Positions 11,735-35,778 of a stretch of DNA of 36,442 nucleotides are shown here, piece after piece. Origin of the DNA: Planctomycetaceae bacterium (GTDB taxonomy: Bacteria > Planctomycetota > Planctomycetia > Pirellulales > UBA1268); NCBI GenBank assembly GCA_005789975.1, contig SXWC01000143.1:1-36442 (forward strand), written 5' to 3'. Numbering within the stretch: position 1 is the first letter of the stretch; every line of letters starts with the position of its first letter. The notes under the pieces were generated by a model. The model did not search any database. It was not told the DNA's origin and worked only from the letters and a program-made list of their open reading frames with translations. The translations under genes and the position numbers were made by a program.

Positions 11735-11812
11735 GCGTGCGGATGGCCGTGATTGCAGGTACGATTTTCTCTCGTTCGCAACCCTGTTTCCTGCCCCCCC
11801 ACTCTACCTGAC

Positions 11813-12955
11813 ATGGCCCCGAAGTCGAAACACCCCGCAAAGGCGGCCGTAGGCAAACTGCCCGCGGTCGATCTCAAGACGCTCAAGCTGATCGTCGGCC
11901 TGGCCGACGAGGTCGCGGCCGCCGCCGAGAAGCGCCGCGACCCCTACCTCGACATCCCCACCCGCAGCCTTTCAAACGTCCGCTTCAACAAGACCCAGAA
12001 AATCATCGAGATGGGCGGCCAGACCAATCGCCGCCAGCTCTTCAATCTCTCGCAGGCCAAGAGCTACATGCAGACCCTGCTCGTGGCCACCGGCTGCAAA
12101 CAGTTGCTCGAGCAGCAAAAGACCACGAGCATCCGCGGTCTCTACTACCTTCTCAAGCACACGATCGATGGCACCCGGGAGGAGACGTTCGCCACGCAGG
12201 AGGAGTGCGATCCGGTCATCGAGGATCTCGAAGTCACGCTCGAGAGCCTCCGCGAGGAGCTCCACGTCTACGCCAGCAACCGTGGCGGCATGGTCGGCCC
12301 GATCACGTTGATCGACTCCGGCGACGAGATCGACTGCTCGCGGATGGGTTCCGGCGGCTACTCGATCCCGTCGATCGTCGAGGCCGATGTCGTGAAGTTC
12401 AAGACCTGCGACGCCAAGTTCATCCTGCATGTCGAGAAAGACACGGTCTGGCGCCGGTTCAACGAGGACAAGTTCTGGCGGAAGCACGGCTGCCTGCTGA
12501 CTCATGGCGGCGGCCAGCCGCCACGGGGCGTGCGGCGGATGCTCTACCGGCTCCACAACGAACTGAAGCTGCCCGTCTACTGCCTGCTCGACAACGATCC
12601 CTGGGGCTACTACATCTACTCCGTGCTCAAGCAGGGTTCGATCAACCTCGCCTACGAGTCGAAGCGGATGGCGATTCCCGAGGCCAAGTTCCTCGGCATC
12701 CGTTCCCGCGACTACGCCCGCTGCAAGCTCTCCCCGAGCGTCCAGATCCAGCTCAACGAGACCGACATCAAGCGGGCGAAGCAGATTGCCGCCTATCCCT
12801 GGTTCGCCGGCAAGAAGGCGTGGCAGAAGGAGATTGAGACGATGCTCACCAACGGCTTCAAGCTGGAGGTCGAGTCGCTGATCTCGAAGGACATCAGCTA
12901 CGTCACCGACACATACACGCCGGAGCGGCTCTCCGAGGCCGACTGGCTGGATTGA
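11813..12955 (+). CDS. top6A: DNA topoisomerase VI subunit A (Spo11-like)
   Basis: Topoisomerase VI is a type IIB enzyme, common in archaea and plants and sporadic in bacteria; subunit A breaks DNA through a tyrosine and subunit B supplies the GHKL ATPase. The 380-residue product has the winged-helix active site with TSIRGLYYLLKH (catalytic tyrosine at Y111 or Y112, the second being expected from the family) and a Toprim domain with E208 (HVEKDTVW) and D260/D262 (LLDNDPWGYYIYS). SGGYSIPS and THGGGQPPRGVRRML are also typical. The ATG at 11813 begins a lysine-rich tail just before homology. A TACGAT at 11760-11765 is a possible -10. No subunit B gene is in this window, so the partner must be elsewhere. 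Confidence 0.93.
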   Translation: MAPKSKHPAKAAVGKLPAVDLKTLKLIVGLADEVAAAAEKRRDPYLDIPTRSLSNVRFNKTQKIIEMGGQTNRRQLFNLSQAKSYMQTLLVATGCKQLLEQQKTTSIRGLYYLLKHTIDGTREETFATQEECDPVIEDLEVTLESLREELHVYASNRGGMVGPITLIDSGDEIDCSRMGSGGYSIPSIVEADVVKFKTCDAKFILHVEKDTVWRRFNEDKFWRKHGCLLTHGGGQPPRGVRRMLYRLHNELKLPVYCLLDNDPWGYYIYSVLKQGSINLAYESKRMAIPEAKFLGIRSRDYARCKLSPSVQIQLNETDIKRAKQIAAYPWFAGKKAWQKEIETMLTNGFKLEVESLISKDISYVTDTYTPERLSEADWLD

Positions 12956-13027: not shown

Positions 13028-13855
13028 TCACGCCTCCTCGCGGAGCATGGGCGGGGGCTCGTCGAGGTCCTCGAGTTCGGGGGGAAGCTGGAGCTGCCGC
13101 ATCGTTTCATCGGTCTTGCGCATCCCGGCGGCCACCTCGTCGACCCGCTGGGCGATGTCGCTGACGTCCCGCTTGGCGACCGAACTTTCGGCGAGCGCCG
13201 CGATCTTGGCCTCCAGTCGCTCGACTTCGGCCGCAACCAGATCGAGCTTCCGGCGGGCCTCCTCGATGTTCTCCAGCCGCTCGCGGCTCGTTTGCAGGTG
13301 GTCCTCGATCGCCGACCGCATCTGCGCCGCGCCCGGGTTGCCCGGAGACAGCGTTGCCAGCCGCTGTTCGAGATCGGCGATCCGCGCGCGGATCGCGGCG
13401 GCGTCGGTGTGGTCGAGGAAGTCGGAGAGCGTCGATGCGCCCCAGATCATCCGCAGATATCCCCAGAGCAGTCGGTCGAGCGACTCCAGCGCGTTCTTGT
13501 CCGGACCGCCACCGTCCGGCCCCCGCATGCTGCCGCCGAGTTCGACGAGCTTGAGGCAATGGTCCCGGAGCTGGTCGAACCGCTTGAGGAGCGCGGGGGG
13601 CAGGTTCTTCCGGATCCGCTCATAGGCCTCGCGGGCGCCCGATGCCTCCAGGTTTTTCCTGGCCTTCGCCTCCTGTGCGTCGACGGCGCTGCGAAAGCGG
13701 TCACTGGCCAGCATGCTCGCCAGGTAGTAGACCTCGCCGGCCGCCACCAGCGGCAGCACGATGCCGGGAAATCCGCAGAGAAACGCCGCAGCCACGCCGC
13801 CTCCGAAGAGCAGCAGGTTCCAACGCGTCATGAACGCGGTCTTCAGGTACGTCAT
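13028..13855 (-). CDS. Membrane-anchored coiled-coil protein, last gene of the psp-like cluster
   Basis: The 275-residue protein starts with two close hydrophobic segments at about residues 11-45 (LLLFGGGVAAAFLCGF, IVLPLVAAGEVYYLA), so it is probably a hairpin in the inner membrane with a long cytoplasmic part. Residues about 60-160 are helical, and about 175-255 are a heptad-rich coiled coil (IADLEQRLATL, AAEVERLEAKIAALAESS). The tail is acidic and proline-rich. The ATG at 13855 was preferred over an upstream ATG at 13981 that would add a non-conserved arginine-rich leader. It lies 153 bases after the ABC ATPase, the widest gap in the cluster, so it may have its own promoter. I recognise no named family; a membrane partner for PspA or the AAA+ ATPase is inference from position. 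Confidence 0.7.
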   Translation of the reverse strand: MTYLKTAFMTRWNLLLFGGGVAAAFLCGFPGIVLPLVAAGEVYYLASMLASDRFRSAVDAQEAKARKNLEASGAREAYERIRKNLPPALLKRFDQLRDHCLKLVELGGSMRGPDGGGPDKNALESLDRLLWGYLRMIWGASTLSDFLDHTDAAAIRARIADLEQRLATLSPGNPGAAQMRSAIEDHLQTSRERLENIEEARRKLDLVAAEVERLEAKIAALAESSVAKRDVSDIAQRVDEVAAGMRKTDETMRQLQLPPELEDLDEPPPMLREEA

Positions 13856-14008
13856 TCGGAAGGGGTCTTCGGCGGAATCTGTGGGTAACAGCGGGTTCCG
13901 GACACGATCTCGTCGGGTCCCGGCGGGGGATTCGGCGGCGGGGCCCGAAAAGGGGAACGAGAAAAAAGCACCTGCCACCACATCGGAGGAAAAGGGGTTC
14001 GGATCGGC

Positions 14009-14935
14009 CTATCCTGCCTGGATTTGGCGGCTGGCACCATTTGGGGAACGTTTCGCGGCTGCCTCCACCTGCTCGATCCGGGCGTGCAGCGCGTTGACCT
14101 GCTCGTGGAACCAGGGCTCGGACTGGATCTCACGGGCGTTTCGCGTCGGCGACGGCAGCCGGACCTCGTCGACGATCCGGCCCGGGGTCGTGCCCATCAC
14201 GAAGACCCGGTCGCCGAGATAGACCGCCTCCTCGACGGAATGCGTCACAAAGAGGACCGTGGCCTGCACCTCCCGCCAGAGCGAGATGAGCATGTCCTGC
14301 ATGTCGAGCCGGGTGGCCGGATCGAGCGCGCCGAAAGGTTCGTCCATGAGGATCACCCGTGGCCGCAGGATCAGGGTGCGGGCGATGGCCACCCGCTGCC
14401 GCATCCCGCCCGAGAGTTCGTGCGGATATTTGCGGGCGTCCCGCCGCGGGTCGAGGCCCACCTTGGCAATCCACTCGAGCCCCTCCGCTTCGCGTTCGCG
14501 CCGCGACACCCCCCGGCACTCGAGCCCGAAGGCCACGTTGTCGAGCACGGTGCGGTTGTCGAAGCTCGTGTAGTCCTGAAACACCATGCCCCTGTCGGCC
14601 CCGGGTCCGATGACCGGCCTGCCGAGCACCGTCACCGTGCCACTCGTGGGCGGATGCTGCGGCTCGAGGCCGGCCACAAGCCTGAGCACGGTGCTCTTGC
14701 CGCAGCCGCTCGGCCCCAGAAACGAAGAGATCTCTCCGTGGTCGGCCACGTCGGGGATCGTGAAACTCACGTGGGAAATCGCCACGTATTCCCGGGGGGT
14801 CCCCCGCCCGTAGATCTTCGTCACATCCCGAAACTCGACCGCGGCAGGCCGGGCGGACGTGGACGCCGAGTCAGACGCCGAGTCAGACGCCGAGTCAGAC
14901 GCCGGGGGCGATCCGGATGGATCCGGCTGATTCAT
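14009..14935 (-). CDS. ABC transporter ATP-binding protein, nitrate/sulfonate/taurine type
   Basis: The 308-residue product is a complete ABC ATPase: Walker [11 protein letters not shown]-loop VFQDYTSF, signature [14 protein letters not shown], Walker [14 protein letters not shown] and the switch histidine in [11 protein letters not shown]. It is most like the NitT/TauT/SsuB group. The first 30 residues are a serine-aspartate-alanine linker encoded by a 12-bp tandem repeat. Its ATG (14935) overlaps the permease stop as ATGA (14932-14935), so the two are translationally coupled. In the cluster it would power the permease just upstream. The cargo cannot be told from the sequence, and given the OmpA-fused binding protein it may be something other than nutrient uptake. 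Confidence 0.92.
14862..14904. repeat. 12-bp tandem repeat, about 3.6 copies
   Basis: GACGCCGAGTCA (plus-strand reading) is repeated exactly three times from 14862 to 14897, followed by a partial copy. It encodes the Ser-Asp-Ser-Ala linker of the ABC ATPase in frame, so copy-number change would only lengthen or shorten the linker. Confidence 0.9.
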
Positions 14936-15855
14936 GGAGTTGCCTCCGGCATTGCCGCCGCCCCGTGGAGCGCCCTGCGAAAAAACCTGGGGAGCAGCCC
15001 CTGGCCACCATACCGGTGCGGGAAGAGATCGCACTGCAGCCACCAGAGCAGCCGGTCGATCGCGTAGGCCACCAGCGGGATGACCACCAACACGATCAGG
15101 ATCGGCTCCCGCTCGCCGCGCCGCTGCGACACATTGATCAGGTCGCCGAGCCCCCCCGTGTCACCGCCGAGCTTGACGACCTCCGCGAGCATCACGTAGC
15201 CGAAAGCGATGCCGAAGAGGAGTCGCAACGAGTTGAAGATCGCCGGCGCCGCCAGGGGGACGAGCACCTTGAGGATGATCTGGAGCCGCGAGCCGCCGAG
15301 CGTCAGCGCGGTGTCGACATACCGCTGGGGCACCTCGAGCACGGCGGCCGTCGTGTCGCTGACGACGAAGGCCACGCTCGCGATGAACAGGAACATCATC
15401 TTCTGGAACTCGCCGATTCCGAAGAAGAAGAACGTCAGCGGGATGAGGGCCGCGACGGGGATGTTGCGGCCAAAAATCGTCAGCGGTGCGACGAACGCCC
15501 GCACCGCCGGGAAACAGGCGGCGAGCACGCCGAGCGGCACGCCCACCACGGCCGACAGTCCGAATCCCAGACAGACCCGCCGGAGGGTCACCAGCGTGTT
15601 GGCGACGAGTCGCCGCTCACCGAAAACACTCGGCACGGCGGCGAGGGTTTCGCCGGGGCTCGGCAGCGTGGCCGGGCTGATGATCCGACTCTCCGCCTCG
15701 CCGGCGGTCGCCACGAACCACAGCGCCAACACGCAGGCCACGCAGGTCACGCCCCAGAAAACGACGGTCGCCGCCTCCGCCTCACCCCGCAGGGGCTGGA
15801 CGTTGACCGCGGGTGGCGGGCTCGGCGATGCCAACGGGTCGGTTGGCGTGGTCAT
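14932..15855 (-). CDS. ABC transporter permease, nitrate/sulfonate/taurine type
   Basis: This 307-residue membrane protein has about six hydrophobic helices, the first at about residues 30-50 and the last near 255-275. The cytoplasmic coupling loop (EAA-type motif) is visible as VDTALTLGGSRLQIILKVLVPLAA, here recognised from its GGS...KVLVPLA core near residue 185. It belongs to the binding-protein-dependent permease family of SsuC, TauC and NrtB. It starts with ATGA overlapping the stop of the substrate-binding gene (15852-15855) and ends overlapping the start of the ATPase, so the three are tightly coupled. The N-terminus (about 25 residues) is proline-rich. Confidence 0.9.
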   Translation of the reverse strand: MTTPTDPLASPSPPPAVNVQPLRGEAEAATVVFWGVTCVACVLALWFVATAGEAESRIISPATLPSPGETLAAVPSVFGERRLVANTLVTLRRVCLGFGLSAVVGVPLGVLAACFPAVRAFVAPLTIFGRNIPVAALIPLTFFFFGIGEFQKMMFLFIASVAFVVSDTTAAVLEVPQRYVDTALTLGGSRLQIILKVLVPLAAPAIFNSLRLLFGIAFGYVMLAEVVKLGGDTGGLGDLINVSQRRGEREPILIVLVVIPLVAYAIDRLLWWLQCDLFPHRYGGQGLLPRFFRRALHGAAAMPEATP

Positions 15856-17594
15856 TCCTTTTCCGCCGCGTAGACCTTGATTTCCACCCGCCTGTTGAGC
15901 GCGTGGTTGTCGGGATGATCGTCATCGGCCGGCCGCTCCCAGCCCAGGCCATCGACCGCAAAACGACCGTCGTCGAACTTGAACTTCTCCACCAACGCAT
16001 CCTTCACCGACCGGGCCCGTTCGAGCGAGAGTTCCTTCACCATCCCTGCCGGCACGGCACCCCGCATGGAACTGTCGGCGTGCCCCTCGACGACGATCCG
16101 CGCGTTGCCGAACTGCTTCGCCAGCGCCCCGGCCTCGTCGAGCACGAGGTCCACACGGGCGTCGTACGGCTCCTCGACGTCCTTGCCGTCGATCCGCCGG
16201 ATCACCTTCTTCCGCAGCTCAGCGCTATTGGGAAAGAAGTGGATCACGATCGTGTTGGTGAGAATCTCCTCGTTCTCCGCGCGAATCTGCTGGACCGTCT
16301 TGGGAGGCAGGCTGATCGCATACTCGTCCTTCGTCTCCGCATACTTGGCTTCGCGGCCGAGCTTCTGGATCACCGAGAAATCCATCACCTGATCGAAGGG
16401 CACAGGATTGTTGGCGATCGCCCCGATGCGACGGTAGAGCATGTAGGCCTGCTTCCAGATCCGCTCGAAGTTGGCCGGGTTGTTGCGATTGAGGAAAAAC
16501 TGGTAGTTCTCGGCCCAGTTGGTGCTGTGGGCGTCGCCCAGCATCGACAGGGCATCGGCGGCGGGAATCGTGTAGCCATCGGCCATCAGCGACGCCACCT
16601 CCGTGCGGGCCGACTCCTGTTTCAGTTCCGCCATCGCGTCGAAGATGCCCCGCACGATCGCCTCGATCTTGTCCGGGTGGTCCTTCGCGAAGTCGGCCCG
16701 CGCAAACCAGACGTCGGCGATCAGGCGGTTGGCCGTCTGAGTCGTGATGAGCATCCGGTTGCCCTTGGCCTCGGCGAGGTTGTAGATGTCGGGCGCCCAC
16801 GACACGCAGCCGGCGATCGACTTGTCGCGGTTGAAAGCCGCGGCGGCCTCGAAGGCGGTGTTGACGTAGATCATCTCCACGTCGGCCGGTTGCAGCCCGC
16901 CGGCCACGAGCATGTTGAGGGCGAAGAACTGGCTGGGGGAGTTTTGCGCCATCACGAGCTTTTTGCCCGCGAGATCCGCGACCGTCTTGATCGATTCGCG
17001 AACCACGATCCCGTCGCCGCCATTGGAGAAGTCGACCTGCTGATAGACGCGGGGCATGATTCGCGAATCCTTCGCGAAGCTGTCGACGAAGAGCGGGAGC
17101 ATGTCGAGGGTGGCCCAGCCGATGTGGACGTTGCCGGCGGCGTAGGCATCCCTCATCTGCACGGGATCGTCGATGAGGACGAGTTCCACCTTGAAGGGCC
17201 TGCCGCCCGGCGCCTGCCAGACTTTCCCCGGCTTGAAGCCGCCGTTGGCCCGAATGATCGGCGCCCAGCCCGCCCAGACATTGAGGGCGAATCGGACGGT
17301 GTCGTCTTCGAGGGGCTTGTAGCCGCTGACGCCCTTCACGGGGGGCAGTTTCTCCGCCGGCTTGAACGTGTATTCCTTGACCGTCGTGGGCACCGCGATG
17401 TCCGGGGCCTCGCTCATCGTCTCGGCGCCGCCGCCCGCATCCACTCCGCCGGCGGCAGGTCTCTGGCCGGCCGCTCCGGGACGACCGAAGCCGAACTGTT
17501 CGAGCATGCCCGCCCGCCACGCGGCCAGGCCGACGAGTCCGAAGATGACGGCCCAGACGGCGAGCCAGAAGGGGGCCTTGGGTTGGCTGGACAT
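15852..17594 (-). CDS. ABC substrate-binding protein fused to an OmpA-like peptidoglycan-binding domain
   Basis: The 580-residue product has one N-terminal transmembrane segment (about residues 9-28), an alanine- and glycine-rich linker, a periplasmic binding-protein fold of the NMT1/SsuA-like type (about residues 80-430: LNVWAGWAPII, HIGWATLDMLP, GIVVRESIKTVADLAGKKLV), and a C-terminal OmpA domain (about 446-575). The OmpA part shows IHFFPNSAEL, VVEGHADSSMRG, LSLERARSVKDAL and NRRVEIKV, the peptidoglycan-binding signature. It is thus probably held in the inner membrane and attached to the wall at the same time, unusual for a ligand-delivery protein. GAGG lies seven bases before the ATG. It sits between the 97-residue gene and the permease. 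The ligand is unknown. Confidence 0.9.
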   Translation of the reverse strand: MSSQPKAPFWLAVWAVIFGLVGLAAWRAGMLEQFGFGRPGAAGQRPAAGGVDAGGGAETMSEAPDIAVPTTVKEYTFKPAEKLPPVKGVSGYKPLEDDTVRFALNVWAGWAPIIRANGGFKPGKVWQAPGGRPFKVELVLIDDPVQMRDAYAAGNVHIGWATLDMLPLFVDSFAKDSRIMPRVYQQVDFSNGGDGIVVRESIKTVADLAGKKLVMAQNSPSQFFALNMLVAGGLQPADVEMIYVNTAFEAAAAFNRDKSIAGCVSWAPDIYNLAEAKGNRMLITTQTANRLIADVWFARADFAKDHPDKIEAIVRGIFDAMAELKQESARTEVASLMADGYTIPAADALSMLGDAHSTNWAENYQFFLNRNNPANFERIWKQAYMLYRRIGAIANNPVPFDQVMDFSVIQKLGREAKYAETKDEYAISLPPKTVQQIRAENEEILTNTIVIHFFPNSAELRKKVIRRIDGKDVEEPYDARVDLVLDEAGALAKQFGNARIVVEGHADSSMRGAVPAGMVKELSLERARSVKDALVEKFKFDDGRFAVDGLGWERPADDDHPDNHALNRRVEIKVYAAEKE

Positions 17595-17643
17595 GAAGTT
17601 GCCTCGGTGTGTGAAGGGAAGCCGCGCCGGGGGATGCGACCGA

Positions 17644-17937
17644 CTAGCCGCGGAAGCGCGTCTTCGGACGTGCGTGACCGGCCATGCGCAGGGCGTGCAT
17701 GAGATCGTAGGCGGTGACTTCGCAGAGCAGCCGCGTCACCTTTTCATGGGCCTCCGGGGAGAGCAACGGCTCGACCTCCCGCATGAGCGTCACCACCCGC
17801 TTCTCCTGCTCGTCGAGTTCCTTCGCCTCGACCACCTCGTCGGCGATCGCAGCGAGGAAGGAGTCGAGTTTCCGCGCATACTCCGCGATCAGCGGAGTCT
17901 CGCTCGAATCGTCAAACCAGGGGGTCTTGGCCGCCAT
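17644..17937 (-). CDS. Small helical protein of the psp-like cluster, function unknown
   Basis: The protein has 97 residues and is predicted to be nearly all helical and acidic, with no membrane segment or signal peptide. It can be followed as several amphipathic helices (EYARKLDSFLAAIADEVVEA, EKRVVTLMREVEPLL, HEKVTRLLCEVTAYDLMHAL) and a short basic tail. GGAG precedes the ATG at a normal distance. It lies 30 bases after the AAA+ ATPase gene and 49 bases before the OmpA-fused binding protein, so it is in the middle of the unit. An adaptor for the AAA+ ATPase or for PspA is a reasonable guess, but only from position. I do not recognise a named family. Confidence 0.75.
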   Translation of the reverse strand: MAAKTPWFDDSSETPLIAEYARKLDSFLAAIADEVVEAKELDEQEKRVVTLMREVEPLLSPEAHEKVTRLLCEVTAYDLMHALRMAGHARPKTRFRG

Positions 17938-17967
17938 GTTGAAACTCTCCGGGGTGCGTTCTGTGGA

Positions 17968-19839
17968 TCAGGAACCAATCACTTCGCGGATCGCCGCCAG
18001 CCTCTCCTGCAGGTGAGACCGACCGCCAGGTTGGCCGACTCTCGTCTTCCAATGTTCGGGCAGGAACCGCTTCTCGGTGCACTCGAGCACGGCCGCGATC
18101 TCCTGCATCTCCTTCTCGAGGCCCTGGGCGCTCGGCATGAAGTCGTCGAGTGCGGCCCCGAGATCCTCCGCCGATATCGTGTCGCTGGCGGGCGGACCGC
18201 CGTCGGCAGCCCGATCGAGGCCCTTGCGACGGGCCGCGAGCACGAGACTCTCGACGTCGGCGCCCGAAAGGCCGAGCGACATGTCGATCGGGCCGGGCAG
18301 GCCCGGAGCGAGCTTCAGGCGGCACTTCCTCGCCATCGCCGCGAACATCGCGTCCATCTCGGCCTGATCGTGGGGATAGAAGAGCGGAATATGGACCTCC
18401 GCGCGACCCTGCCGCTTGAGGTCGATCGGGAGCAGGTCGGGACGGCTGGTGAGCAGCATCCAGACGATCTTGCCGCGATACCGGGTGTCGCCCATCTGCC
18501 GGGCGATCATCGAGAACACCCGTGCGCTCGTGCCCGAGTCGCCGTCGCTCTGACGGTTGCCGAGCGCCGCATCAGCCTCGTCGATGATCACCACCACCGG
18601 CCCGAGGCTGCGGAGCACACCGAGGGCATGCTCGAGATTGCCCTCGGTCTCCCCCACGTACTTGCTGCGGAAGTTCTTGAGCACCACGCAGGGAATCCCC
18701 ACGCTGCCGGCATAGCATTCGGCGATGAAGCTCTTGCCGGTGCCGACCGGCCCGCAGATCAAATACCCCATCGGGGCGCTCTCGAGCTGCCCGCTCCTGA
18801 TCGCCCTCGCGTCCGATTCGAGGCGACCCTTGGCGTCGGCATGGCCCGCGACGGCATCGAGCGTGAGCCGCGGCTGAACAAACTCGATCAGGCCATGGCA
18901 CGAGCGTTCGATGAGGTCTTTTTTCCGGGCCGTGAACTCGGGGCCGTCGGGGGCCGTCCGCTCACGGGCCGAGAGCGTGACCACGGCCCGCAGGCTTTCG
19001 AGCGTGAGGCCGCCGGAAAGCGCGGCCACCCGGCGAACGCCATCAAGGTGCTCCGAAGGCATCCCGGCCGCCGCAGCGGTCGCCAGCGCGAACCGCTCCC
19101 GTTCATCGGCCTCCGGCATCGACACCTCGATGGCCGTCACGGCGGGATTGGCGACCACCCGCGGATGCATCTCCGCGAGCGAATCGGTGAGCAGCACGAT
19201 CGCCACATTGACGCGACGGAGCAGCGGATTGGTCGCCCAGCCGACGATCCGCACCAGCCGTGCCGCTCCCGAACGGGCCCCCGCTTCACCGGCGGGCACG
19301 AGATACTGCGCGTAATCGAGAACCACGGCGATCCGTTTTCGTTGCTCGGGCGGGTCGATCAGGTTCCGCTCCAGGAGCGCGTCGATCGCGGCGAGGGCCT
19401 GATCGGGATCGCGGGGCCACGTGGCCGCGTTGCCCAGCCGCTCCGTCAGCCATTGCGCCATCGTCCTCAGGCGGGCCGGGTCAGGACCGGCCAACGGCCG
19501 CAGCCCCTTGCCGACGTCATAGGCAAGCACGATGTCCCAGCGGCCGAACATTTCCCGGGCGAGGAAGTCGGGCACCGTACCCCAGGCGTTTCCGTCGGCA
19601 GCCGCGGCCGGCGCGGCGATCGGCACGAGGTCACGGACATTCCCGTGCATGAGAAAGACGCAACTCGTCCCGGAGAGATAGGCGTCCCCGAGCCGCTCCG
19701 CCCATGGCGGACACCATTCCGGCAGAGCCGCGGACCCCGCCAGCGGCGGCCCCATGCCGATACCCGCGGAAACGGAGCCCGGGGCGACCTCCGCTGCCGG
19801 CGGTCGCGGCGTGTCTCTGGCTGCTGAGGAAGTGCTCAC
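17968..19839 (-). CDS. Two-module AAA+ ATPase of the classical (Vps4/FtsH-like) type
   Basis: The 623-residue protein has two AAA+ modules. The first (about 55-290) is degenerate: GNVRDL stands where a Walker A would be, and VVLDYAQ replaces the DExx of Walker B. The second (about 320-560) is complete: Walker A GPVGTGKS (K369), pore loop KYVGETEGN (Y394), Walker B VVIIDEAD (D420, E421), sensor TSRPD and arginine fingers in KRQGRAEVHIPL. This matches the classical clade that includes Vps4, the ATPase that remodels ESCRT-III polymers. The start is GTG at 19839, supported by AGGAG (19846-19850) at six bases. It follows pspA by 40 bases. Since PspA is itself an ESCRT-III relative, a remodelling role on PspA is a strong inference but is not shown. 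Confidence 0.88.
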   Translation of the reverse strand: MSTSSAARDTPRPPAAEVAPGSVSAGIGMGPPLAGSAALPEWCPPWAERLGDAYLSGTSCVFLMHGNVRDLVPIAAPAAAADGNAWGTVPDFLAREMFGRWDIVLAYDVGKGLRPLAGPDPARLRTMAQWLTERLGNAATWPRDPDQALAAIDALLERNLIDPPEQRKRIAVVLDYAQYLVPAGEAGARSGAARLVRIVGWATNPLLRRVNVAIVLLTDSLAEMHPRVVANPAVTAIEVSMPEADERERFALATAAAAGMPSEHLDGVRRVAALSGGLTLESLRAVVTLSARERTAPDGPEFTARKKDLIERSCHGLIEFVQPRLTLDAVAGHADAKGRLESDARAIRSGQLESAPMGYLICGPVGTGKSFIAECYAGSVGIPCVVLKNFRSKYVGETEGNLEHALGVLRSLGPVVVIIDEADAALGNRQSDGDSGTSARVFSMIARQMGDTRYRGKIVWMLLTSRPDLLPIDLKRQGRAEVHIPLFYPHDQAEMDAMFAAMARKCRLKLAPGLPGPIDMSLGLSGADVESLVLAARRKGLDRAADGGPPASDTISAEDLGAALDDFMPSAQGLEKEMQEIAAVLECTEKRFLPEHWKTRVGQPGGRSHLQERLAAIREVIGS

Positions 19840-19879
19840 GATCGGCTCCTGAGGTGGCTCAACGCATCGCGCCGGTCGC

Positions 19880-20629
19880 TCAGGTGGACTTTTGCGAGAT
19901 TCGCTCGGATCCGAGCTCCTTGTCGTCGGCCTTCACGCCGGCGGTTTCCGGCGTGACCATGCCCATCTCGATCTCGAACTCGCGGAGGGCGTTGTCGGCC
20001 ATGGCCCTCTCCACGGCCTCTTCCTGCTTGATGTTCTCGAGGCCTTCCCCCGAGAGGTCGGCCGCCACGCGGACCTTCGCGCGGTTGAGACCGATCTTGT
20101 CTTGAATCACATCCTCGATCTGCCCGAAGTCGGTCGTGACGTCGAAGTTGAAACTCTGCGCGAGTTTCGCGAGCTCGGCCTCCGCCCGCGAGAGCTTGAG
20201 ATCGGCGTCATACTTCTGGATCTTGGTCTTGAGATCCGAGAGCTTCTTCGTGGCGTGCTTGATCTTCGTGACGTTGTTGTTGTACGCCGTCTCGTGCAGG
20301 CCGAGCTGCCCCTCGTTCTCGGCAAGCTCCTTCTTCGCCTTCTGCAACTCCAGCGCGAACCTCGAGGCGGTCTCCCGCTCGCCGGCCTGCAGATAAGCCT
20401 TGACCTTCGCCTCCAGCGACGCCACATGCTGCCGATCACCGTTGACCTGCCGCGTCACCCGTTCGACGAGGGCACGGTACTGCTCGAGCCCCTCTCGGCC
20501 CTCCTTCATCTGATCGACTGCCTTGTCGTATTCATACTGCAGTTGGGCGATCGGGTCGGCCGTCCAGAAAAAGTTGGCGACCTTGTTCATCTGGGCCGCA
20601 AGGGCCTTCCAGAGCTTGCCAAGAATCAT
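19880..20629 (-). CDS. pspA: PspA/IM30 (Vipp1) family protein, ESCRT-III superfamily
   Basis: PspA polymerises on the inner membrane under envelope stress and is a bacterial ESCRT-III homologue. The 249-residue product is almost entirely coiled coil. Residues 1-45 match the family start, including DPIAQLQYEYDKAVDQM after the N-terminal amphipathic helix (ILGKLWKALAAQMNKV). The long helical hairpin follows to about 150, then shorter helices and an acidic tail of about 30 residues. An upstream ATG at 20761 in the same frame must be rejected because that frame reads antisense-free through the tRNA-His gene (the familiar VVAQLVRASVCGTEGRGFESR artefact). The ATG at 20629 has a perfect GGAGG eight bases upstream. 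It is the first protein gene of the cluster. Confidence 0.92.
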   Translation of the reverse strand: MILGKLWKALAAQMNKVANFFWTADPIAQLQYEYDKAVDQMKEGREGLEQYRALVERVTRQVNGDRQHVASLEAKVKAYLQAGERETASRFALELQKAKKELAENEGQLGLHETAYNNNVTKIKHATKKLSDLKTKIQKYDADLKLSRAEAELAKLAQSFNFDVTTDFGQIEDVIQDKIGLNRAKVRVAADLSGEGLENIKQEEAVERAMADNALREFEIEMGMVTPETAGVKADDKELGSERISQKST

Positions 20630-20637
20630 GGACAAAG

Positions 20638-20642
20638 CCTCC
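20638..20642 (-). promoter_or_regulatory. Ribosome-binding site of pspA
   Basis: GGAGG on the minus strand (CCTCC on the plus strand), eight bases from the ATG at 20629. This decides the start against the longer frame that runs through the tRNA gene. Confidence 0.8.
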
Positions 20643-20663
20643 GCGAATGAAGTGGAAATCAGG

Positions 20664-20737
20664 GGTGGCTGACGGGACTCGAACCCGCGACCCTCGGTAC
20701 CACAAACCGATGCTCTAACCAACTGAGCTACAACCAC
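20664..20737 (-). tRNA. tRNA-His (anticodon GTG)
   Basis: A full cloverleaf can be drawn: acceptor GTGGTTG/CAGCCAC, D stem GCTC/GAGC, anticodon stem TCGGT/ACCGA with loop TTGTGGT, T stem GCGGG/CCCGT with loop TTCGAGT. Base 20738 supplies the extra G-1 that pairs with the discriminator C73, a histidine identity feature. The 3' CCA is not encoded (CCT follows the discriminator). The pspA start is only 34 bases downstream on the same strand. Confidence 0.97.
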
Positions 20738-20749
20738 CGTGCGGCGGGG

Positions 20750-31242: not shown

Positions 31243-34200
31243 ATGACCTGCTGCCACCCGAGGCGGCCCGCCGAGCGCGGGGCCGCTGCTCGTGTATTCG
31301 TCGCGCTGGCGCTCGCAGCCCTCGTGGAATCGACCGCGTACGGCCAGGTCTACCTCTACAACTACCTGCAGAACAGCCTGATCGGGTCCGGTTTCTACAA
31401 CGCGTACGCCTTCGGGGACAGCGCCGAGAAGTTGGCCCAGCGGTTCGTCACCCAGACCGGCGGCAACGTCGTCACCGACGTGAAGGTGAACGTCTGGACC
31501 GGACTCTCCAACCCCGGCACCTTCACGGTCAGTCTCTACTCCGACGACTCCAACAAGGTCGGGACGAGCATCGCCACGCTCGGCACCCGGGACATCCAGA
31601 CGATCTACGCTCCCTCCGGCACGACGGCCGCCGTCGCTTTCAGCGGCCTCAGCCTTGGCCTGACGCCCACCACCTCCTACTGGATCGTGGTGGAGAACGA
31701 GACCGACGTGGTCGGCAGCGAGATGTACTGGGGCTACGGCGGGACCGGATCCAGTTCCAACGTGTTTCCAAACCCCACGACCGCCGCCCGGTTCAGATCC
31801 TACACCACGCCACAATGGCAGAACGTCACCCCGCCCGCGCTGGGCATGCAGGTCACCGCCATTGCCGAACCTGCCCCGGGCAACGTCGTCTGGAACGTCC
31901 CCTCGGGCGCATGGAATGTCGGCGGCAACTGGTCGGGCGGGCTCACGCCCTTCGCCAGCGGCACCGCGATCATCGATGGCGGCCGCACGGTGCTGCTGGG
32001 AAGCGGGGTCGTCGGCACGGCCACCAGCGCCATCATCGCCAACACGTCCACCGGCACGATGAGCCTCTCGGGCGGCCAGCTGACGGCCGCGTCGAGCATC
32101 GTGGGCATGAGCCAGGGGTCGAGCGGCAGCGTGACCGTCAGCAGCGGCAGCTGGGCCACCGCCGGTGACCTCGAACTCGGCCGCTCCGGAACCGCGACGA
32201 TGCAGATCTCCGGTGGCCGGGTCAGCAACGCCACCGCCTACATCGGCAACTGGTGGGTCATCAGCGGGGCCAATGCCACCGGCAGTGCGACCGTCACCGG
32301 CGGCACCTGGGCCAGTTCGGGCGATCTCTACGTGGGCTGGTCGGGCGTCGGCACGCTCTCGATCAACGGCGGCTTGGTGACCAATGCCAACGGCCTGATC
32401 GCCTTCAACGGCGGCGCCATGGGCAGCGCGACCGTCAGCAGCGGCACCTGGACCAACAGCGGCACCCTGACGATCGGCGGCACTGGAGCTGGAGCCCTCA
32501 CCCGTGGGGCATCGCTGCTCGTCAACGGCGGCTTCGTGTCCAACACCGACGCGCTGCTCGCTTCAAAGTCGCTCTCCACCGGCACCGCGACGGTGAGCAG
32601 CGGCACCTGGGCGTCGAGCGGCATGCTCAGCGTGGGCAACTCCGGCACGGGCACGCTCACCCTCAGCGGCGGTCGCGTGACCAGCGGCACGGCCTTCGTC
32701 GGGAGGAACAGCGACTCCCGGGGCATCGCGACGGTCACGGGCGGCACCTGGGCCACGACCGGCGACCTCACCATCGGCGGCTCCGGCACGGGCTCGCTCT
32801 CCATGAGCGGCGGCAGCGTGACCAGCGGCAGCGGTGTGCTGGGTGCTGCCGCCGGCTCCAATGGCACCGCCACGATCAGCGGCGGCACCTGGGCGACGAG
32901 CGGCGACATGATCGTCGGGGGAACGGGCAGTGCCGCGCTCACCGTCTCCGGCAGCGGCGTCGTTCGCATCAACGGCGGCGTCGGCACGCTCGCGCTCGCC
33001 TCGGCGGCCGGATCGGTCGGCACGCTGAATCTCGGTTCCGGCGGATCGGTCGGCACACTCGCGACAAACACGATCTCCGGTGGGGCCGGCACGGCGACGG
33101 TGAACTTCAACGGCGCCAACGTCACGTTCACCACGCCGCTGACCGGCACGCTCGCCGTCAACCAAACAGGGACTGGCACGACGATCCTGGGCGGGAACAA
33201 CTCCTACGCGGGCACCACCGCCGTGACCGCGGGTACCCTGCAGGCCGATTCGAACGCGCGGCTGGGCACGAGCGCGCTCTCGCTGAGCGGCGGCAGCTTC
33301 CGCTTCGGCGCGGCCTTCAGCGATCTCCGCGGCATCGCGCTCGGCACCAGCGGCGGCACGCTCGACACCAACGGCTTCAGCGTGGCCTACGGGTCGGCGA
33401 TCACCGGCAGCGGCAGCCTTACGAAGGCGGGCCTGGGCGGCCTGACGCTCTCCGCATCGAGCAGCTACACGGGCGGCACGATCGTGACGTCGGGCACCCT
33501 GCGGGTCGCCGCGGGCGGCGCGATCAATCATGCGGCCGCGGCGACGACCGTCGCCTCCGGCTCGGGCGACTCGGCAGCACTCGTGATCGCCGGCGGCATG
33601 GTCACGAGCTCGACCGCCACAATCGGCAGCGGCACCGGTGCGATCGGCGCCGCGACGATCTCGAGCGGCACGTGGGCCAACAGCGGGAGCCTCACCGTCG
33701 GAGCGTTTGGGTCGGGCACGATGCTTGTCAGCGGCGGCAGCGTCACGGCCAGCAGCGGGGCGCTCGGCAACGCCGCGGGCTCGAGCGGCGCCGCCACGAT
33801 CAGCGGCGGAAGCCTTGCCACGAGCGGTTCGCTCACGATCGGCAACGCGGGGAGGGGCGCGTTGGTCGTGAGCGGTGGCAATGTGACCGCCGCCAACGGC
33901 GGCATCGGCTGGGGTGCGGGCTCGAGCGGCACGGCCACGGTCACGAGCGGCACCTGGGCCAACAGCGTCTATCTCTACGTCGGCAACTCGGGCACGGGCG
34001 CGCTGATCGTCGACGGCGGCAGCGTGACCGATCAGTGGGCCTATCTCGGCTATGCCGCCGGCTCGAGTGGCTCGGCGACGATCACGAGCGGCACATGGAC
34101 GAGCACGAACGACCTCACCGTCGGGTATTCCGGAACCGGAGCGATGACCATCAGTGGCGGCCGCGTGGCCAACAACCGCTGCTGGGTAGGCTTCTCCGCC

Positions 34201-35778
34201 GGTTCGACGGGCAGCGTGCTCGTCACCGGCGGCACATGGGCCAACAGCGGCAATCTCGATGTGGGATCCGGCGGCAACGGCACGCTCGTCGTCAGCGGCG
34301 GCAGCGTGACCAACACAACGGGCTATATCGGCACGAACGGCGGCGTGAACGGCAGCGCGACGGTGAGCGGCGGCACATGGTCCACGTCGGCGCTCTTCGT
34401 GGGGTTCATTGGCAACGGCACGTTGAACGTCACGGGCAGCGGCGGCGTGACGGTCGGCGGCGGCGCCGGCACGATGACGCTCGCGCGATTTGCGGGGGCG
34501 ACGGGCACCCTCAACCTCGGAACCGGTGGCGTGGCGGGCACGCTCGCGGCGGCCGTCATCAGCGGCTCCCGCGCCGGGTCGACCGTGAACTTCAACCATA
34601 CCAACGACACCACTCTCGCGGCATCGCTCATCGGCACGCTCGCCGTGACGAAGGCGGGCCCCGGCACGGCCACGCTCAGCGGCACCAACACCTACGCCGG
34701 CACCACGACCGTGACCGGTGGCCTCCTGCAGATCGACGCCAACTCGCGGCTGGGCTCGAGCACGCTCGGGCTCGCCGGCGGCGGCATCCGGTTCGGCGCG
34801 GCCTTTAATGACCTGCGGAGCACGACGCTCACCGGCAGCGGCGGCACCTTCGACACCAACGGCTTCACGATCTCGTATGCGTCCGCCGTTTCCGGAACCG
34901 GGGCGCTCACGAAGACGGGCCTCGGCACGCTCACCTTGGCGGGCAACAAGAGCTACGGGGGGGGCACGATGGTCACGACGGGCACGCTCATGGCCGGAGC
35001 CGCCGGGGCGTTCGGCAGCGGTGGGATCACGGTGGGCCCCGCGGGCACGCTCGATCTCGCCGGCTACGCCGTGACCAACGCGATCACCAACGGCGGCGGC
35101 TCGATCGTCAATGCCGCCGCCTACGGCGGCAGCCAGGCGGTGACGGGCGTCGTCTCAATGACCGGCACGATCGGGGGTGCGGTCAACGTCGCGGCCGCGG
35201 GAGTGCTCAGGGGCAACCAGACGGTGTTCAACGGCGGCGTGTCGCTGGCCTCCGGAGCGACCCACTCTCCGGGGGCTTCCCCGGGAATGCAGACGTTCGC
35301 GGCAGGGCTCTCCTACGATGCCGGATCGATCCTCACCTGGGAGCTGATCGCCAACTCCGGCACGGGGGCCGGCACGAACTACGACTTCCTGAGCGTGACC
35401 GGGGGCAGCCTGTCGATCTCGTCCAGCGCGTCGCTGGACCTCGTCTTCGATGGGGCGGGCTCGGCCGTGGACTGGAGCAGTGCGTTCTGGAACGCCGGCC
35501 ATTCCTGGACCATCATCGACGCCTCGGCCGCGGCGTCGAGCACCGGACTCTTCACGCTGGGCACGGTCGGCAACGATGCCTTCGGGCGGTCGCTGCCCTC
35601 GGTGCGGCCACTCGCGTCCTTCGAGATCGACCGGAGCGGGCCCGACGTGCTCGTAACCTACGTGGTTCCCGAGCCTTCGACGCTCACGCCGGCGATGCTT
35701 GGCCTCGGTTTCGGCTGTTACTCGCTGCTTCGACGGATAGCCCGGTCAACGGCACTTCGGCAACGGTCCTCCGGCTAA
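31243..35778 (+). CDS. Very large autotransporter-repeat, PEP-CTERM surface protein
   Basis: The 1511-residue protein has an N-terminal signal peptide (about 1-36, VFVALALAALVESTAYGQ), a domain like the choice-of-anchor type found in PEP-CTERM proteins (about 37-205), a long glycine/serine/threonine-rich repeat part, and a C-terminal VPEPST at about 1475-1480 with a short hydrophobic helix and RR. The middle is made of ~47-residue units of the form GSSG-ATISGGTWA-SGDLTVG-SGTG-LTISGG-VT, six in a first block (about 285-575) and six in a second (about 786-1072). Each block is followed by an autotransporter-associated beta-strand module (LTKAGLGGLTLS...YTGGT and its twin LTKTGLGTLTLA...YGGGT). 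It is probably a surface beta-helix. The last ~9 codons lie in a dispersed repeat. Confidence 0.85.
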   Translation: MTCCHPRRPAERGAAARVFVALALAALVESTAYGQVYLYNYLQNSLIGSGFYNAYAFGDSAEKLAQRFVTQTGGNVVTDVKVNVWTGLSNPGTFTVSLYSDDSNKVGTSIATLGTRDIQTIYAPSGTTAAVAFSGLSLGLTPTTSYWIVVENETDVVGSEMYWGYGGTGSSSNVFPNPTTAARFRSYTTPQWQNVTPPALGMQVTAIAEPAPGNVVWNVPSGAWNVGGNWSGGLTPFASGTAIIDGGRTVLLGSGVVGTATSAIIANTSTGTMSLSGGQLTAASSIVGMSQGSSGSVTVSSGSWATAGDLELGRSGTATMQISGGRVSNATAYIGNWWVISGANATGSATVTGGTWASSGDLYVGWSGVGTLSINGGLVTNANGLIAFNGGAMGSATVSSGTWTNSGTLTIGGTGAGALTRGASLLVNGGFVSNTDALLASKSLSTGTATVSSGTWASSGMLSVGNSGTGTLTLSGGRVTSGTAFVGRNSDSRGIATVTGGTWATTGDLTIGGSGTGSLSMSGGSVTSGSGVLGAAAGSNGTATISGGTWATSGDMIVGGTGSAALTVSGSGVVRINGGVGTLALASAAGSVGTLNLGSGGSVGTLATNTISGGAGTATVNFNGANVTFTTPLTGTLAVNQTGTGTTILGGNNSYAGTTAVTAGTLQADSNARLGTSALSLSGGSFRFGAAFSDLRGIALGTSGGTLDTNGFSVAYGSAITGSGSLTKAGLGGLTLSASSSYTGGTIVTSGTLRVAAGGAINHAAAATTVASGSGDSAALVIAGGMVTSSTATIGSGTGAIGAATISSGTWANSGSLTVGAFGSGTMLVSGGSVTASSGALGNAAGSSGAATISGGSLATSGSLTIGNAGRGALVVSGGNVTAANGGIGWGAGSSGTATVTSGTWANSVYLYVGNSGTGALIVDGGSVTDQWAYLGYAAGSSGSATITSGTWTSTNDLTVGYSGTGAMTISGGRVANNRCWVGFSAGSTGSVLVTGGTWANSGNLDVGSGGNGTLVVSGGSVTNTTGYIGTNGGVNGSATVSGGTWSTSALFVGFIGNGTLNVTGSGGVTVGGGAGTMTLARFAGATGTLNLGTGGVAGTLAAAVISGSRAGSTVNFNHTNDTTLAASLIGTLAVTKAGPGTATLSGTNTYAGTTTVTGGLLQIDANSRLGSSTLGLAGGGIRFGAAFNDLRSTTLTGSGGTFDTNGFTISYASAVSGTGALTKTGLGTLTLAGNKSYGGGTMVTTGTLMAGAAGAFGSGGITVGPAGTLDLAGYAVTNAITNGGGSIVNAAAYGGSQAVTGVVSMTGTIGGAVNVAAAGVLRGNQTVFNGGVSLASGATHSPGASPGMQTFAAGLSYDAGSILTWELIANSGTGAGTNYDFLSVTGGSLSISSSASLDLVFDGAGSAVDWSSAFWNAGHSWTIIDASAAASSTGLFTLGTVGNDAFGRSLPSVRPLASFEIDRSGPDVLVTYVVPEPSTLTPAMLGLGFGCYSLLRRIARSTALRQRSSG
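32095..32960 (+). repeat. First block of six ~141-bp coding repeats
   Basis: Each unit encodes about 47 residues ending near SGG-VTN/S. The units are diverged, but share AGCGGCGGCA-like and GGCACCTGGGCC-like runs. The following module (to about 33597) has its twin after the second block. Confidence 0.7.
33600..34455 (+). repeat. Second block of six ~141-bp coding repeats
   Basis: Six more units of the same kind, in the same order relative to the following module. The module after it (about 34456-35100) aligns with the module after the first block, including NSRLGSSTLGLAGG against NARLGTSALSLSGG and FGAAFNDLRS against FGAAFSDLRG. Confidence 0.7.

Follow-up and report, generated by a model that had tools for sequence, protein, structure and literature searches.

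A seven-gene block on the minus strand

The window analysed here, contig SXWC01000143.1 of the Planctomycetaceae bacterium assembly GCA_005789975.1, is a stretch of 36,442 nucleotides. On its minus strand lies a block of seven open reading frames in which a PspA protein, of the ESCRT-III (endosomal sorting complexes required for transport III) superfamily, is encoded beside an AAA+ ATPase. From pspA, the first gene (20629-19880), the block runs through the ATPase, a 97-residue helical protein (hel97), a substrate-binding protein fused to an OmpA-like domain (SBP-OmpA), a permease and an ATPase of the ATP-binding cassette (ABC) type to a last gene (13855-13028) encoding a protein with a transmembrane hairpin and a coiled coil (TMcc). 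An initial annotation of this DNA had listed these genes with their spacing. All frames are indeed open. The first gaps measure 40, 30 and 49 bases, the next two junctions are ATGA overlaps of 4 bases, and the last gap, of 153 bases, shrinks to 27 bases if TMcc starts at an upstream in-frame GTG at 13981. The PspA-ATPase neighbourhood and the OmpA fusion described there are likewise borne out by family matches and by intact active-site motifs in the ATPase (Table 1).

A contig scan with the ATPase yielded 68 loci from Planctomycetota and Acidobacteriota, onto which the seven proteins were mapped. All seven genes are present in 26 of the 32 loci with enough flanking sequence, and the block is conserved beyond chance, in agreement with the operon initially proposed. 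Among the remaining well-flanked loci, one holds ATPase-hel97, one ATPase-hel97-TMcc, and one everything except the permease and the ABC ATPase. The gene order in Planctomycetota is PspA-ATPase-hel97-SBP/OmpA-permease-ABC-TMcc, and in six acidobacterial loci (L055, L059, L062, L063, L064, L067) it is PspA-SBP/OmpA-permease-ABC-TMcc-ATPase-hel97; the PspA of L055 is cut by the contig end, and the permease of L063 was detected in only one of two mapping passes.

Table 1. Features of the block and the adjoining tRNA gene (window coordinates)
Feature	Position	Strand	Basis
PspA/IM30-family protein, 249 aa, tailed subfamily	19880..20629	-	PF04012 50.8 bits, cut-off 33.9; subfamily from tree
PspA C-terminal tail motif KELG, residues 237-240	19910..19921	-	K237 and G240 invariant in 24/24 aligned rows
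AAA+ ATPase, 623 aa	17968..19839	-	PF00004 74.8 bits, residues 360-485; C-terminal half only
Walker A GPVGTGKS, AAA domain	18730..18753	-	pattern in 61/61 full members
Pore loop KYVGETEGN, AAA domain	18637..18663	-	K[YF]VGETEGN in 58/61
Walker B VVVIIDEAD, AAA domain	18571..18597	-	pattern in 59/61
Arginine-finger stretch KRQGR	18403..18417	-	KRQGRxExHIPL in 61/61
hel97, 97-residue helical protein, candidate adaptor	17644..17937	-	position by ATPase; predicted three-helix bundle
SBP-OmpA, N-terminal hydrophobic segment, OmpA-like fusion	15852..17594	-	NMT1 35.2 bits, OmpA 41.5 bits
OmpA-like peptidoglycan-binding domain (predicted), residues 485-564 of SBP-OmpA	15903..16142	-	PF00691
ABC permease, taurine/nitrate/SaoP type	14932..15855	-	PF00528 (BPD_transp_1) 59.0 bits
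ABC ATPase	14009..14935	-	PF00005 (ABC_tran) 94.8 bits
TMcc, TM-hairpin plus coiled-coil protein, 275 aa	13028..13855	-	no family above cut-off; predicted structure
tRNA-His, context, probably outside the machine	20662..20737	-	32 bases upstream of pspA

The tailed PspA subfamily and its neighbouring ATPase

The PspA proteins partnered by the ATPase form a subfamily whose flexible tail ends in [KR]x[LMI]G. In the operon proteins, the terminal helix (..ALREFEIEMG..) is followed by a linker and then by a K and, three positions on, a G, both of them invariant. Other Planctomycetota PspAs display the same tail architecture with differing linkers (..PKDLGPSESVKA, ..EKTIGPAERAKG, ..IKQMGPQAQ), and canonical PspAs, second copies in the same genomes included, end at the helix or shortly after.

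Within the last 25 residues, the motif is present in 59 of 59 full PspAs of the window family, against 2.5% of shuffled tails of that family. It is found under the same rule in 29 of 31 rows of the tailed subfamily versus 4 of 44 other PspAs (p 3e-14), and in these four the match is the helix end. A strict count gives 28/31, as the match of G119 lies in the helix and the motif of G093:C102 and G188 lies further from the end; a wider rule of 50 residues gives 31/31 versus 6/44. The 75 rows were drawn from 104 matches, the rest, among them G169 with its internal stop, not being taken in. In a tree of 77 rows computed with the tail excluded, the tailed PspAs fall in one half; nine of the 75 rows, those with short profile matches, were left out of this tree and are counted within the 44 others. 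Among 15 PspAs adjacent to an ATPase, six of them new (G001, G150, G240, G271, G186, G147:C61), 14 carry the motif and the remaining one is cut by the locus end. Acidobacterial regions fetched afterwards show it in 9 of 13 PspAs. Of the four proteins that lack it, three have KTM, KTL and KTM as their last residues; one protein scored among the misses (L239, 6898-7959) has a tail unlike a PspA end. The PspA family profile has no match at E 0.01 among the sequences of solved structures.

The initial annotation had described the ATPase as Vps4-type. This label is wrong by membership. Indeed, all 27 aligned members match PF00004, and none matches MIT or Vps4_C (PF09336) at E 0.01, an absence judged by sequence profile; PF09336 does match in 30 of 294 genomes, each time on a contig that does not carry the ATPase gene. 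The NCBIfam equivalog for CdvC (NF041006) scores 32.3 bits against a cut-off of 650, versus 57.7 bits for CDC48, the best-scoring model, which is likewise below its cut-off. Among the best 60 of 261 solved relatives, AFG2 and CDC48 come first. Vps4 identity is therefore rejected by sequence, and the ATPase reads as a classic-type AAA protein nearer to CDC48, AFG2 and FtsH than to Vps4. The loop KYVGETEGN, cited initially as Vps4-like, is a general pore loop of classic AAA proteins. The Pfam matches of the ATPase, across the 27 members, are to general AAA families only, with no DNA-binding or sigma-54 part among them.

The active-site motifs of Table 1 were counted in 61 full members. No Pfam family matches the N-terminal half, either in the window protein or in the 27 members, and a profile comparison of the two halves, bearing on a possible dead second AAA domain, returned a probability of 0.2%. 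In one locus (L001, 1261-3186), the ATPase contains an exact duplication of 21 residues that is absent from the other 26 aligned members and is perhaps an assembly artefact.

The small protein hel97 has no family match above cut-off in Pfam or NCBIfam. Of the 68 loci, 63 show it, and in all 63 it lies at most 300 bases downstream of the ATPase. Its model is a three-helix bundle (mean predicted local distance difference test score, pLDDT, 76; predicted template modelling score, pTM, 0.56) without a PDB match. In several deep Planctomycetota, where hel97 was not found, a protein of about 200 residues lies directly downstream of the ATPase, as in L125 (8225-9013, minus strand), L127 (11408-12016, plus strand) and L136 (8647-9270, plus strand). 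This protein has no similarity to hel97, and its L127 member has no Pfam family above cut-off. Frames weakly similar to it adjoin PspA in L250, L256 and L257.

Coupling within genomes and a possible remodelling module

The co-occurrence search suggested by the initial annotation was carried out on 294 Planctomycetota genomes, with the ATPase profile at E 1e-40 and PF04012 at E 1e-5. Many of these genomes are fragmented, so that absences are weak evidence, and two of them, G001 and G012, had been found via the ATPase. The ATPase profile matches 53 of the 294 genomes and PF04012 matches 78. PspA is present in 40 of the 53 ATPase genomes versus 38 of the 241 without ATPase (one-sided Fisher p 6.6e-17). 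All 27 pairs located on one contig are at most 6.5 kb apart, and in 13 of the 53 ATPase genomes PspA lies elsewhere. Another 13 have no PF04012 match; three of these (G125, G021, G128) encode a divergent PspA-like protein beside the ATPase (E 2e-6, 5e-8 and 0.007). Genomes bearing the ATPase supply 28 of the 31 subfamily rows versus 8 of the 44 other rows (p 2.6e-10), and seven of these eight are second PspAs, their genomes encoding another PspA that belongs to the subfamily or is linked to the ATPase. The ATPase and the tailed PspA are coupled within genomes, also when they are unlinked.

In Acidobacteriota, the ATPase is present in 28 of 199 genomes, and PspA is nearby in 12 of 20 ATPase regions, which cover 20 of those 28 genomes. 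With one acidobacterial ATPase as protein query, 5794 clusters match at E 1e-30; the names among the 120 clusters listed include Acidobacteriota, Edwardsbacteria, Sumerlaeota and Fibrobacterota.

This distribution bears on one rival explanation of the block, a plain operon for nutrient uptake whose stress regulation also covers unrelated membrane genes, with no joint machine. This explanation is very unlikely. The ABC genes resemble a complete importer and parts of the block do separate in some lineages, but the retention of seven genes in a different order in another phylum and the coupling of ATPase and tailed PspA even when unlinked weigh against it.

A bacterial ESCRT-III-like remodelling module, in which the ATPase would engage the PspA tail to remodel polymers as Vps4 does on ESCRT-III without being Vps4, has about an even chance of being the right reading. 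PspA polymers would coat or seal the inner membrane. An ATPase hexamer would capture the flexible PspA tail at [KR]x[LMI]G, perhaps via hel97 as adaptor, and thread it through its pore, so that PspA subunits would be removed from the polymer. TMcc would serve as a membrane platform for the complex. The ABC importer would be held to peptidoglycan through its OmpA domain and may link the machine with the uptake of solutes or with the distance between membrane and wall. Gripping of the tail to extract subunits is suggested because a protein that forms polymers has a flexible tail that is conserved and that tracks, genome by genome, an ATPase with a pore loop. A more specific version appears rather doubtful as a whole: a bacterial ESCRT-III/ATPase pair with a CDC48-type AAA+ protein, [KR]x[LMI]G as tail capture motif and a separate MIT-like adaptor (hel97, or the protein of about 200 residues in deep Planctomycetota), occurring in at least Planctomycetota and Acidobacteriota and performing ATP-dependent remodelling of a wall-tethered membrane site.

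A conserved tail would suit docking no less than threading through a pore. In enterobacteria, PspA is a known repressor of the AAA protein PspF. Likewise, PspA could here act on the ATPase as a partner or inhibitor instead of being its substrate, with the small proteins as regulators. This is quite improbable; the ATPase matches general AAA families only and lacks, among these matches, a DNA-binding or sigma-54 part.

Several observations weigh against the remodelling module. Contact between PspA and the ATPase is a step that we infer from co-occurrence. The Planctomycetota data in which the tail motif came to light are also those used for counting it, and the acidobacterial count is only near-independent, four acidobacterial PspAs having been in the earlier alignment. 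The main split of the PspA tree is weakly supported (bootstrap 62/100). Subfamily PspAs of G148 and G204 carry the motif in genomes without an ATPase match; a third such row without ATPase, that of G119, has no motif at its end. The position of sensor 1, which is Asn in classic AAA proteins, is occupied by S, C or A (43, 9 and 5 cases) in the 57 members, whole or partial, that show this stretch, and ATP hydrolysis may be slow because Asn is replaced. In 8 of the 20 acidobacterial ATPase regions, one of them a 4-kb contig, PspA was not seen.

The gene arrangement of some genomes points in the same direction. In deep lineages the ATPase is unlinked, G166, G195, G135 and G036 carrying PspA-SBP/OmpA-permease-ABC-TMcc on another contig, and G012 has TMcc-ATPase-hel97 with no PspA match anywhere in the genome. 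With TMcc often the immediate neighbour of the ATPase, these cases would suit an ATPase that acts as a chaperone in the assembly or quality control of the transporter and TMcc. PspA would then only guard the membrane during construction of the wall-linked complex and dock its tail on TMcc or the transporter. Such a role is unlikely, and PspA-ATPase-hel97 occurs without transporter and TMcc in 3 of the 32 well-flanked loci. The initial annotation named genes lying apart in related genomes as a refuting result; this is partly the case, in these three loci and in the five genomes just named, yet co-occurrence at the genome level persists (40/53).

Operons of this kind, and the functional idea, are already published. 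Section 18 of Ravi et al. 2024 (PMC11237479, example OGG56892.1) reports operons with PspA, AAA+, ABC and PBP-OmpA genes and proposes ATP-dependent ESCRT-like remodelling linked to solute transport. The PspA, AAA+ ATPase, ABC ATPase, permease and solute-binding plus OmpA protein of those operons are all present here. That section names neither the 97-residue protein nor a PspA tail motif, and it describes an inactive N-terminal AAA copy, which could not be shown for the present ATPase. The tail motif is the addition of this analysis; searches of literature titles and abstract starts returned no description of it.

Vps4 grips the ESCRT-III tail and takes subunits out, as described in parts of PMC11746142 and PMC8281802, and the PspA tail resembles that tail. 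The ESCRT-III/Vps4 systems of eukaryotes and archaea (CdvB/CdvC) share with the block an ESCRT-III-superfamily protein encoded beside a classic AAA ATPase and a conserved C-terminal tail on the polymer protein, but the present ATPase is devoid of MIT and Vps4_C and nearer to CDC48, AFG2 and FtsH. The Vps4 label falls, but the tail motif makes the analogy in mode of action stronger. This motif does not follow the consensus of the MIT-interacting motifs MIM1 and MIM2.

In the relevant part of Liu et al. 2024 (PMC10936438), Vps4 and ESCRT-III are placed together in ESCRT systems of archaea and eukaryotes only, and an ESCRT-component gene in the neighbourhood is a second criterion for Vps4 in those groups; the present ATPase has such a neighbour if PspA is counted as an ESCRT-III relative. 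The same part describes archaeal Halo_adaptin loci with an MIT-free Vps4-like ATPase beside a protein weakly similar to PspA, and Meth_adaptin loci including an ABC substrate-binding protein. Both kinds have a CDC48-type N domain and winged-helix proteins, for which no match exists among the seven proteins here. The Discussion of Liu et al. 2021 (PMC8281802) leaves open whether a Vps4-like ATPase exists for PspA or Vipp1, and the terms Vps4 and Planctomycet are absent from the main text of Popp et al. 2022 (PMC9239133). A PspA subfamily tail motif that tracks an adjacent AAA+ ATPase offers a concrete, mutable handle on the question of a dedicated ATPase for bacterial ESCRT-III, and it makes the idea that the ATPase pulls on PspA directly testable.

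With the classic Psp response (PspF-PspA-PspB-PspC), the block has PspA in common, here of another, tailed subfamily. PspF, PspB and PspC had all been reported missing; this holds for PspC, which is not among the seven proteins, PspB and PspF not having been searched for. PF04024 (PspC) matches in 3 of 23 related genomes, always on a contig other than that of the block.

Transporter, TMcc and surroundings

The role of the transporter is the least certain part of the remodelling reading. Its permease scores 112 bits with the SaoP model, below the cut-off of 295. In the ABC ATPase, the Walker A, signature and Walker B patterns are present in 34 of 34 full members and a VTH pattern in 23 of 34. 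The OmpA domain shows the pattern GHxD...L[ST]xxRAxxV in 38 of 47 full SBP-OmpA members and should bind peptidoglycan; because of this expected binding, the importer could mark the site where the membrane meets the wall.

TMcc, which adjoins the ATPase or the transporter in both phyla, has no family above cut-off. In its model, helices come after a hydrophobic hairpin (mean pLDDT 75, pTM 0.58), and the fold matches are weak and of the coiled-coil and BAR sort. A profile comparison with PspA gives 0.1%, and Snf7 is not among the best 25 of the 115 families matched weakly in Pfam. The "Snf7 homologs with a TM segment" of section 18 in Ravi et al. are a possible equivalent whose identity with TMcc could not be confirmed. 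At the C-terminus of TMcc (window 13043-13072, minus strand) lies an acidic segment containing hydrophobic residues and an invariant proline, which may be a second short motif for binding.

That the seven genes form one transcription unit is something we infer from spacing and conservation only, because a consensus scan found no sigma-70-like promoter and terminator-like sites are close to expectation (6 seen versus 4.6 expected). Sigma-54-like sites in the window are at chance level (11 versus 11.3 expected). The right end given initially for the block (20738) takes in the tRNA-His (20737-20662) and no eighth protein gene. Of 35 scanned loci, 18 have a tRNA-His gene upstream of pspA on the same strand, between tens of bases and several kb away; pspA may therefore be read from the tRNA promoter.

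On the other side of the block, the window encodes a Topoisomerase VI subunit A/Spo11-like protein (11753-12955, plus strand; Toprim domain 194 bits). Such a gene adjoins the operon in many loci and is convergent with it in nearly all, an exception being seen in L005. Further away, a frame of 1511 residues (31243-35778, plus strand) contains four passenger-associated-transport repeats (PF12951) and is an autotransporter-like surface protein.

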